NCBI GenBank assembly: GCA_001586195.1
Contig: CP014609.1
Span: forward strand, 3,256,501 to 3,320,500
Reading direction: 5' to 3'
Source of the DNA: Solibacillus silvestris
GTDB lineage: Bacteria > Bacillota > Bacilli > Bacillales_A > Planococcaceae
DNA length: 64,000 nt
Below are positions 59,565-62,900 of the stretch, one piece after another. The notes beneath the pieces are model-generated. The model did not search any database. It was not told the DNA's origin and saw only the letters and a program-made list of their open reading frames with translations. Each line of letters starts with the position of its first letter. Positions within the stretch are counted from its first letter, which is position 1. The position numbers and the translations under genes were made by a program.

Positions 59565-60815
59565 TTATTTAAATGTTCTCCAGCCAATATCTTTACGGAA
59601 AAAGAAATTCGTCCATTCTTTTTTTGCAAGTTCAGCATATACTTTTTCCTGCGCTTCTTTTAATGTAGTTGCTTCTGCCGCTACTAATAATACACGGCCA
59701 CCGTTACCTACGAACCGATCACCCGCAAGCTTTGTCCCCGCATGGAATACCGGCAGTTCAACATCCGAAAATTCCGGCAGAGCATTTCCTTTTTCCACAT
59801 CGCCTGGGTAGCCTTCCGCCGCAACAACAACACCTAGCATAGCTGCTTCTTTCCACTGTAAATCGAATGGCTGCTCGTTCATTACGCTCATCATAAATTC
59901 ACCGAAGTCTGAAGCCATACGTGGTAATACGACTTGTGTTTCCGGGTCACCAAATCGTGCATTGAACTCAATTACTTTCGGGCCTTTTGCCGTTAAAATT
60001 AAGCCTGCATACAGGATACCGGTGAATGATACACCTTCTGCTTCCATTGCACTTACAGTCGGCTCTACGATTGTGTCATATGCAACTTTTACAATGTCTT
60101 CAGAAATTTGCGGTACTGGTGAATAAGCACCCATTCCCCCTGTATTTGGTCCTTTATCCCCGTCATAAGCACGTTTATGATCTTGTGCTATGACCATTGG
60201 ATAAATTTGTCCTTTATGTACAAAACTCATAAAGCTGAATTCTTCGCCATCCAGGAACTCTTCCACAACAACACGGGAAGACGAATCACCGAAACGTTGG
60301 TTACCGATCATATCTTCCACTGCTTCGATCGCTTCCTGTTCTGTCATCGCTACAATGACACCTTTTCCGGCAGCTAATCCGTCCGCTTTAATTACAATTG
60401 GAGCACCTTGCTCTTTAATATAAGCAACCGCTTTATCCGCTTCTGTAAATGTTTCATGCGCTGCCGTCGGAATATTATATTTGTTCATAATCTCTTTTGC
60501 ATAAGACTTCGAACCTTCAATTTTTGCCGCCGCTTTTGTTGGGCCGAAAATAACCAACCCTTGCTCGTTGAAGTAGTCAACGATTCCTTCTGCTAATGGC
60601 TGCTCCGGACCTACAAATGTTAAAGCCACATCATTTTCTTTTGCAAATTGTGCAAGTGATGCGAAATCCAGTGCATCGATTGCCACTACTTGTGCATCCT
60701 GCTTCATCCCGTCATTTCCTGGTGCTACGAAAACGTTTTGTACAGATGGTGCATTGTTGAATTGCTTTGCGATCGCATGTTCACGACCACCACTACCGAT
60801 TACAAGAATATTCAT
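59565..60815 (-). CDS. purD: Phosphoribosylamine-glycine ligase
   Basis: A 416-aa GAR synthetase, second step of purine synthesis. ATP-grasp domain with VKADGLAAGKGV, GPNTGGMGAYSP and GDPETQVVLPRM; N-terminal IGSGGREHAI. The ATG at 60815 follows AAAGGAG; a longer frame crosses the GC-rich repeat. In B. subtilis purD follows purH directly; here an RNA unit with its own terminator lies between them, so purD may have its own promoter. Possible -10 elements lie near 60925-60935 on the minus strand. Confidence 0.95.
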   Translation of the reverse strand: MNILVIGSGGREHAIAKQFNNAPSVQNVFVAPGNDGMKQDAQVVAIDALDFASLAQFAKENDVALTFVGPEQPLAEGIVDYFNEQGLVIFGPTKAAAKIEGSKSYAKEIMNKYNIPTAAHETFTEADKAVAYIKEQGAPIVIKADGLAAGKGVIVAMTEQEAIEAVEDMIGNQRFGDSSSRVVVEEFLDGEEFSFMSFVHKGQIYPMVIAQDHKRAYDGDKGPNTGGMGAYSPVPQISEDIVKVAYDTIVEPTVSAMEAEGVSFTGILYAGLILTAKGPKVIEFNARFGDPETQVVLPRMASDFGEFMMSVMNEQPFDLQWKEAAMLGVVVAAEGYPGDVEKGNALPEFSDVELPVFHAGTKLAGDRFVGNGGRVLLVAAEATTLKEAQEKVYAELAKKEWTNFFFRKDIGWRTFK

Positions 60816-60842
60816 TATGAGCTCTCCTTTTTTATCGTTAAT

Positions 60843-60890
60843 TTCCGTTGCGGGCGAATGCCTTCCGCTGGGGGAGTCCTCGCCCTTCAC
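60843..60890. repeat. GC-rich palindromic element before purD
   Basis: On the plus strand GGGCGA (60852-60857) pairs with TCGCCC (60880-60885) across a GC-rich loop (about 65 percent GC against 38 percent around it). Such elements with CGGAAGGC...CGAGGACTCC-type sequence are dispersed in Bacillales genomes, so this is likely a copy of a genome-wide intergenic repeat. Confidence 0.5.
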
Positions 60891-60961
60891 TACAAACAAC
60901 TAAAGTCATTCCCTACACATGATTTAACCTTATAATTCTCTATTAATTTTATTTTTCTAAT

Positions 60962-60994
60962 AAAAAAAACGCCCGCCAAATTTTAGGCGAGCGC
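60962..60994 (-). terminator. Terminator of the five-hairpin RNA
   Basis: On the minus strand CGCTCGCC pairs with GGCGGGCG (60986-60993 with 60970-60977), then eight T residues. This strong terminator fixes the RNA strand. Confidence 0.9.
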
Positions 60995-61200
60995 TTTTCA
61001 TTAATGGTCGTTTACACTGCGCTACCCGACCAAAAGTAGTGCTGTGTATCTTACAATCAATGATTATTTTATTATTAACAGGGCATCTCCCGGCCAAAGT
61101 CGATGCAGTTGTTAATAAAATTTGGTTACGACGGGGACCCGGCCAAGAATCGCCCAATCGTCTTATTTACCCCTCTCCCGGCCTGAAAGAAGAATAAATA

Positions 61201-61218
61201 AAGCATTTGCAAACGCTT
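61201..61218. repeat. 18-bp palindrome between hairpins 1 and 2
   Basis: AAGCATTTGCAAACGCTT is an almost perfect palindrome (one A/G pair off). It resembles a half-conserved cre-type site and could be an operator near the start of the RNA, or a sixth, short hairpin. Confidence 0.35.
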
Positions 61219-61258
61219 CTGCTAACGTCCGGCCAGAACATTAGCGAAACTTTATTCT

Positions 61259-61264
61259 ATTATA
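61259..61264 (-). promoter_or_regulatory. TATAAT -10 element for the hairpin RNA
   Basis: A perfect minus-strand -10, about 40 bases beyond the purH stop. The -35 at the right distance is weak (TAGAGA). It places the RNA start near 61252. Confidence 0.45.
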
Positions 61265-61301: not shown

Positions 61302-62837
61302 TTAGTGTTTAAAATGACGAACCCGTGTAAACACCATGGCAATACCATGTTTGTTTGCTGCATCTATTGATTCCTGGTCTTTAATCGAGCCACCTGGTTG
61401 AATGATTGCTTTAATACCGGCTTTTGCCGCTGCTTCTACTGTGTCGCCCATTGGGAAGAATGCATCAGAAGCTAATGCCGCGCCCTGTGCTTTATCTCCC
61501 GCTTGTTCAAAGGCAATTTTCGCAGCACCTACACGGTTCATTTGACCCGCACCTACACCTAATGTCATTTGCTTATCTGTTACAACGATGGCATTCGATT
61601 TTACATGCTTCACAACTGCCCAGCCTAGTTTTAATGCTTCCCACTCTTCTTCAGTCGGTTCACGGTCTGTTACAACTTGAATAGTTGCATCTTTAAAGCC
61701 GAAACGGTCCGGCTCCTGTACAAGTAAACCACCTTCAACTGCTACAACATTGAACTGATCCTGCTTTTCCTGTGTGAAATCGATTGTTAACAGACGAATG
61801 TTTTTCTTCTGCGTTAAAATCTCTAATGCTTCTGAAGTAAAGCTTGGCGCAATGATGATTTCCAGGAAAATACCCGATAACTTTTCGGCAGTTGCCTTGT
61901 CCACTTCTTTGTTTAATGCGATGATGCCGCCAAAGATAGATGTTGGATCTGCTTCATATGCTTTATTGAATGCTTCTTCAATTGTTTCGCCAGTACCGAC
62001 ACCACATGGGTTCATGTGCTTTACGGCAACCGCTGCAGGCATTTCAAATTCTTTTACGATTTGCAATGCTGCATTTGCATCCTGAATATTGTTGTACGAT
62101 AACTCTTTACCGTGTAATTGTGTTGCGTAGGCAATCGAGAAATCCGAACCTAAACGTTTTGCATAGAAAGCCGCTTTTTGGTGAGGGTTTTCACCATAGC
62201 GTAATGTTTGCTTCAACTCATATGTTAGCGTCATGTTTTCAGGGAACTCTTCGCCAATTGCATTTGATAAATGATTGGAAATATACGAATCATAAGCAGC
62301 CGTATGACGGAATACTTTTGCTGCTAAACGACGACGTGTTGCTAATGTTGTTTTTCCATCTGCCTTCAACTCTTCCAATACGGCAGAATAGTCATTTGCA
62401 TCAACAATTACCGTTACATAATCATGGTTTTTTGCAGCTGAACGTAACATTGTCGGACCACCAATATCGATATTTTCAATTGCATCATCCCAAGATACAT
62501 CCGGCTTGGAAATCGTTTCGACGAACGGATATAAGTTGACACATACAATTTCGATTGGGCGGATGCCATGTTCACTCATCTGTGCAACATGGCTTGGCTC
62601 ATCAAACTTACCTAATAGACCGCCATGAATCATTGGATTTAATGTTTTTACACGGCCATCCAAAATTTCCGGGAAGTTTGTTACTTCATCCACTGCTGTT
62701 ACCGGAACATTGTTTTGTTGTAGTAAACTTTTTGTTCCCCCAGTAGAAAGTACTTCATAGCCAAGAGCTACTAATTCTTTTGCAAATTCTAAAATACCAT
62801 TTTTATCTGAAACACTAATAAGTGCACGTTTCGTCAC
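61302..62837 (-). CDS. purH: AICAR transformylase/IMP cyclohydrolase
   Basis: A 511-aa bifunctional enzyme for the last two purine steps. The N-terminal MGS-like IMP cyclohydrolase begins with [14 protein letters not shown]; the transformylase carries [11 protein letters not shown] and the C-terminal [11 protein letters not shown]. The initiation codon is GTG at 62837, after GGAGG; an in-frame ATG further upstream lies in the GC-rich repeat. It follows purN. Confidence 0.95.
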
Positions 62838-62862
62838 GATTAGGTCCTCCAATTCATTTTTT

Positions 62863-62890
62863 CGGTGAGCAATGCCCTCACTGGAGCGGC
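62863..62890. repeat. Possible second copy of the GC-rich element before purH
   Basis: GTGAG/CTCAC (62865-62869 with 62877-62881) around AATGCC; it shares AATGCC and CTGG with the purD-side element, in the same orientation. The match is too short to be sure. Confidence 0.35.
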
Positions 62891-62900
62891 TCATGCGAAT

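Follow-up and report, generated by a model that had tools for sequence, protein, structure and literature searches.

A small structured RNA with repeated UGGYC hairpin loops in the purH-purD interval of five related soil-bacterial genera

Antitoxin RNAs of the ToxI type, i.e. those of type III toxin-antitoxin systems, consist of tandem RNA repeats followed by a terminator, and in T-box antiterminators a UGG sequence pairs with the CCA end of tRNA. CsrB titrates CsrA by means of repeated CsrA sites in hairpin loops, the CsrA motif requiring GGA, mostly in the loop (PMC7652899). In LhrC of Listeria a repeated loop motif is used for pairing, and in low-GC Gram-positives C-rich UCCC loops mask Shine-Dalgarno sequences (PMC4132741). 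OLE RNA has a symmetric kissing loop, L9.3, with the tetranucleotide GGCC, and this loop switches among the palindromes GGCC, GAUC and AGCU (PMC12286853). Here we describe a small structured RNA, previously undescribed, that lies in the purH-purD intergenic region of five related genera of soil bacteria.

The design of the purH-purD RNA is already known from CsrB-type RNAs; its loop module, lineage and locus are new. Like CsrB/CsrC and RsmX/Y/Z, it has the features of a stand-alone RNA in which repeated hairpins expose one short motif ahead of an end terminator, but those RNAs present GGA in the loop, whereas the purH-purD RNA presents UGGYC closed by Y-G pairs. It has 3-5 sites compared with about 18-22 in CsrB, and there is neither homology nor an Rfam match. 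LhrC likewise carries several copies of a short motif within one Gram-positive small RNA; its motif, however, is UCCC directed against Shine-Dalgarno regions (PMC4132741), whereas the purH-purD RNA has a G-rich loop, the complementary sites of which are not enriched. In contrast to the homo-oligomeric RNAs OLE, ROOL and GOLLD, the purH-purD RNA is far shorter, is a row of independent hairpins, and displays no switching of palindromes. RNAs of the ToxI type have direct repeats ahead of a toxin gene, whereas the stems of the purH-purD RNA differ from one another and the gene that follows is purD. The likeness to T-boxes is that UGGY could pair with RCCA; the differences are that no Rfam T-box match and no shared antiterminator were found, and that UGGYC is present in up to five apical loops.

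The RNA was analysed in the window, i.e. the whole 64,000-nucleotide stretch of Solibacillus silvestris DNA under study (Table 1). The initial annotation had described five hairpins with a shared loop and, on the minus strand, a TATAAT box and an eight-T terminator, and these are seen in a sequence that folds well beyond its shuffled counterparts: the minus strand folds at -110.3 kcal/mol, compared with -77.2 (sd 4.4) kcal/mol for 100 dinucleotide shuffles (z = -7.5), none of which (0/100) folds as well, and the minimum-energy fold contains all five hairpins and the terminator. Most of the homologous sequences, when folded independently, give the same row of hairpins with different stems. GGCCGG occurs 12 times in the 64-kb window, about as expected by chance, but four of these occurrences share a strand and fall within a span of 145 bases. 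A pattern for an array of three loops gave a single match in the 3.99 Mb genome (0 for the reversed control pattern), and neither this pattern nor a covariance model search found a second copy of the RNA in the same genome.

Table 1. Positions in the window of the purH-purD RNA, its predicted parts and the genes on either side.
Feature	Position	Strand	Remarks
-10 box TATAAT	61259..61264	-	putative own promoter of the RNA
Hairpin 1	61215..61252	-	loop UGGCC at 61235-61231; GGCCGG at 61234-61229; fold and inner-stem covariation
Hairpin 2	61162..61202	-	loop AGGCC in the window genome, UGGCC in most other Solibacillus; GGCCGG at 61183-61178
Hairpin 3	61128..61161	-	loop UGGCC at 61145-61141; GGCCGG at 61144-61139
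Hairpin 4	61072..61118	-	loop UGGCC at 61096-61092, UGGUC in several relatives; GGCCGG at 61095-61090
Hairpin 5	60998..61063	-	loop UGGUC at 61032-61028; GGTCGG at 61031-61026
Intrinsic terminator	60962..60997	-	GCGCTCGCC-TAAAATTT-GGCGGGCG-T8, GC-rich
purH	61302..62894	-	upstream of the RNA in every homologue
purD	59565..60899 (as listed)	-	follows the RNA, same strand, in all homologues

Transcription is predicted to start near position 61252 on the minus strand. The -35 box of the window RNA (TAGAGA, four of six matches, spacer of 17 to TATAAT) is weak, and the -35 element is poor and varied in most genomes; the case for a promoter is therefore made mainly by the conserved TATAATARAATA at the -10 box, which is common to all 21 distinct homologues. 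The -10 box and the terminator are retained in every homologue. Read on the minus strand, the terminator runs CGCTCGCC...GGCGGGCG and then eight Ts, the last at 60962; its stem is kept in all homologues and its loop is variable, the 5' strand, AACGCUCGC, being almost invariant.

The true start of purD is likely an ATG near 60815, the listed TTG being merely that of the longest reading, and the distance from the terminator to the purD ATG is 146 nt in the window genome and 30-42 nt in many relatives. Positions 60850-60895 of the window, between the terminator and purD, hold a GC-rich stretch, GCGGGCGAATGCCTTCCGCTGGGGGAGTCC, that occurs once within the window; stretches resembling it are also found after the RNA in the genomes of S. 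merdavium and S. faecavium and are absent from the close relatives of the window genome. It looks like a dispersed repeat element inserted at this position. The stretch between terminator and purD was also examined for repeats at five Metasolibacillus loci, and in several Metasolibacillus this spacer is filled by short imperfect repeats of the general type CGCAGATAAGTCATGA, which were not seen in other genera.

The loop is the most sharply defined part of the RNA. In 99 loops from the 21 distinct sequences, covering the five genera, the consensus is 5'-YYY-UGGYC-GGR-3', with G3, G6 and G7 invariant (99/99) and G2 and C5 (98/99 each) and U1 (97/99) nearly so. Loop position 4 is occupied by C in 64 of the 99 loops and by U in the other 35, with no other base, and the resulting GGUC is found in nearly all copies of hairpin 5. 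The three bases before the loop are pyrimidines, with one exception among the 99; the GGR after the loop, which reads GGG in 59/99, is part of the closing stem. The first description of the motif, as GGCCGG preceded by TNN, was inexact, hairpin 3 having CTT at that place, and gives way to the comparative consensus. Exceptions to the consensus sit in hairpin 2, and it is this same copy that gets lost: it is under the least constraint and is absent from Metasolibacillus and one Caryophanon. In the window genome the first loop base of hairpin 2 (61184, minus strand) is A (CAGGCCGG), a private change, all other Solibacillus having U. Five hairpins are present in Solibacillus and most others, four in one Caryophanon and several Metasolibacillus, and three in two Metasolibacillus.

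Outside the loops the sequence has diverged in such a manner that pairing is preserved, as the initial annotation had proposed for the outer stems and as arm swaps and shuffles across relatives bear out. Comparison between genera gives 90-100% identity for the 7-base loop region and 35-61% for the outer arms. Native arms pair at a mean of -11.0 to -16.7 kcal/mol, compared with -5.7 to -10.3 kcal/mol for swaps between genera. When loop-anchored arms were shuffled among the sequences, native pairing was reached in 0/1000 shuffles for hairpins 1 and 2 and in 0/2000 for the outer stems of hairpins 3 and 4, values that serve as support and not as formal probabilities, given that such shuffles leave relatedness in; the many Watson-Crick pair types observed at single positions are the stronger argument. 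For hairpin 5, which contains internal loops, gapless pairing was in no excess over shuffles, and the support for its pairing comes from the arm-swap mean and from individual folds. The loop-anchored arms and arm swaps were used because RNAalifold, run on a MAFFT alignment, joined the shared loops of hairpins 3 and 5 in a spurious long-range helix. The base of hairpin 1, GUUUC/GAAGC with a bulged A, is the best-conserved stem of the RNA, and an unpaired A lies four bases 5' of the loop of hairpin 4 in 21/21 sequences. No open reading frame is shared among the homologues, the longest frames differing in position and sequence. Comparison of the sequences thus indicates a structure under selection, the stems of which have been fully rewritten and the exposed loop of which has been retained.

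A DNA search revealed a full-length homologue in 15/15 congeners, with 72-98% identity. A covariance model of 62 positions, comprising the -10 box and hairpin 1, was then the means of searching the family, and matched 28/261 genomes of the Planococcaceae: 16 Solibacillus, five Metasolibacillus (including 'Bacillus ndiopicus'), three Caryophanon, three of the Lysinibacillus odysseyi group and one of a fifth genus. The RNA is present in 28/28 examined genomes of these five genera, in one copy each, always between purH and purD. The other 233 family genomes gave no match to the -10 box/hairpin 1 model and, because the family search rests on that model, it may have overlooked divergent relatives whose first hairpin is different. 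Among 399 genomes drawn from across the class, the hairpin 1 model matched known carriers only. A pattern scan of 84,980 species returned the same genera and scattered records (Lachnospiraceae, Roseibium, Phenylobacterium and others) that, as a group, are taken as chance because they fail the loop-array filter; matches to the loop-array pattern outside the five genera are tandem or low-complexity repeats. In three genomes of another genus of the family, TTGGYCGG recurs in tandemly repeated units of about 40 nt (G202 C1:220981-221416, G229 C18:57890-58020 and G253 C1:1746340-1746427); these are direct sequence repeats as opposed to the hairpin array of the purH-purD RNA. No match pointing to a phage, plasmid or viral origin was found, the viral pattern being exact and confined to hairpin 1.

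The five genera group together in a PurH tree (ultrafast bootstrap 94, SH-aLRT 85), so one origin is likely; a single change suffices in 93% of the PurH bootstrap trees, and one gain followed by vertical descent is the simplest history of the RNA. The interruption of purH and purD, which had been noted in the window genome with reference to adjacent genes elsewhere, is real, since in most sister genera and in the other families sampled the two genes are close together without the RNA. At seven loci from sister genera that lack the RNA, inspection by eye often showed a hairpin resembling a terminator in the purH-purD interval, which suggests that transcription was already partly terminated ahead of purD before the RNA arose.

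Within the window no Rfam family reaches its gathering score; when the E-value limit is relaxed, the top-scoring family is Thr_leader, which matches the terminator end with 27.1 bits where its gathering score is 55. We found no paper on this purH-purD RNA. The proposal of a new structured noncoding RNA is therefore upheld, by conserved loops, covarying stems, the lack of an Rfam match, and the restriction to one clade and one locus. Sequence comparison establishes that the RNA is structured, that its loop is conserved and its hairpin number variable, and that it belongs to a single clade and a fixed locus; the function discussed below is put forward by analogy.

The constancy of the loop on rewritten stems suggests that it serves to capture a partner in several copies, and specific loops on sequence-free stems, in copy numbers of 3 to 5, are the pattern expected for repeated sites of a single partner. 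We tentatively favour, with a little less than even confidence, a stand-alone multivalent RNA that would bind the same partner, most likely a protein, in several copies. An RNA of about 290 nt would be made from the minus strand, from its own promoter to its own terminator, as a scaffold of three to five equivalent hairpins with one displayed module each. The module would be the UGGYC pentaloop closed by Y-G, Y-G and Y-R pairs, the stem sequence being irrelevant; each hairpin would bind one copy of the same partner, most probably an RNA-binding protein that reads UGGYC-GG. The RNA may then titrate its partner or bring several copies together, much as CsrB/RsmZ do but with a different protein, and read-through of the terminator may also supply purD in many carrier genomes. 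Points that count against this proposal are the poor -35 element of most genomes, the gapless pairing of hairpin 5 at no more than shuffle level, that the loop-closing Gs could also be kept for pairing with another RNA, and that a purD start 30-42 nt past the terminator in many genomes would fit a role in cis. Of the sponge and leader functions proposed at the outset, capture of a protein fits best, whereas antisense action at ribosome-binding sites is without support.

The cis role, in its full form, is that the RNA is a regulated 5' region of purD, in which the hairpins would control passage through the terminator in response to a ligand, protein or tRNA. The presence of purD on the same strand in every homologue is consistent with such a role, and a spacing of 30-42 nt after the T-run, as found in many, leaves little room for a purD promoter, which implies read-through. 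It may also be relevant that AGCGUU of hairpin 1 is complementary to AACGCU of the terminator, in which AACGCUCGC is nearly invariant. However, no shared antiterminator was found: the upstream segment that pairs best with the terminator is not the same from one genome to the next and pairs less strongly than the terminator itself (-9 to -14 vs -16 to -21), and the hairpin 1 AGCGUU does not hold that place in all genomes and pairs much more weakly than the terminator. In addition, several sister genera have the terminator-like hairpin without the RNA, so a leaky terminator may predate it, and some genomes have unrelated inserts, up to 265 nt long, between the terminator and purD. We regard a leader or attenuator as unlikely, albeit a serious candidate.

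Slightly more doubtful is self-assembly, in which self-complementary GGYC loops would kiss within or between molecules to give dimers or larger RNA-only particles. GGCC is palindromic, 5'-YUGGYCGG-3' is self-complementary when G-U pairs are allowed, and linear duplex estimates are favourable for UGGCC:UGGCC (-5.9 kcal/mol) and for UCUGGCCGGA with itself (-16.7 kcal/mol); the symmetric kissing loop of OLE RNA is a precedent for GGCC in this role (PMC12286853). Against this, the 99 loops hold only GGCC, GGUC and two private changes, with no other Watson-Crick palindrome despite the rewritten stems, and GGUC self-pairs poorly, the linear duplex estimates being +2.4 kcal/mol for UGGUC:UGGUC and -3.2 kcal/mol for UGGUC with UGGCC.

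Base pairing of the loops with a fixed RNA carrying GGCCA or GRCCA, be it mRNAs, an sRNA or the RCCA 3' ends of tRNA, we consider rather improbable. UGGY is complementary to those tRNA ends, the limitation of position 4 to C or U is as expected opposite G, and the repeated loop motif of LhrC is a precedent (PMC4132741). The purH-purD loop is, however, not of the C-rich UCCC type, G6 and G7 are located in the stem, and complementary sites near ribosome-binding sites are not enriched in six genomes: neither CCGRCCA upstream of GGAGG nor CCGRCCAAAG genome-wide was in excess over reversed control patterns, some of the matches being the RNA locus itself.

Most improbable by far is a CsrA sponge of the CsrB/RsmZ family, for although the multi-hairpin design resembles CsrB/RsmZ and CsrA is encoded in 16/16 RNA-bearing genomes tested, CsrA is an unlikely partner because the loops are without GGA (they read UGGYC with few exceptions, GGR lying in the stem) and because sister genera lacking the RNA have CsrA just the same, the protein being found in 18/18 genomes tested, two of them from such genera.

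Returning to capture of a protein, we suspect that one copy of the partner is bound per hairpin. It is possible, though we hold this more loosely than multivalent binding as such, that the three to five UGGYC hairpins capture a not yet recognised loop-specific RNA-binding protein and so represent a new class of multivalent RNA in bacteria, a second, independently evolved titration system of the CsrB design, located in the purine operon. To our knowledge, few multivalent small RNAs have been described outside Csr/Rsm, and Gram-positive bacteria have hardly any. The rewriting of stems around retained loops amounts to natural mutagenesis, by which the binding module is already defined to the base, and, if capture is true, the RNA could serve as bait for an RNA-binding protein not known before. 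The locus also illustrates how an RNA gene that stands alone, with promoter and terminator, arose inside a conserved biosynthetic operon without the operon's last gene being cut off.
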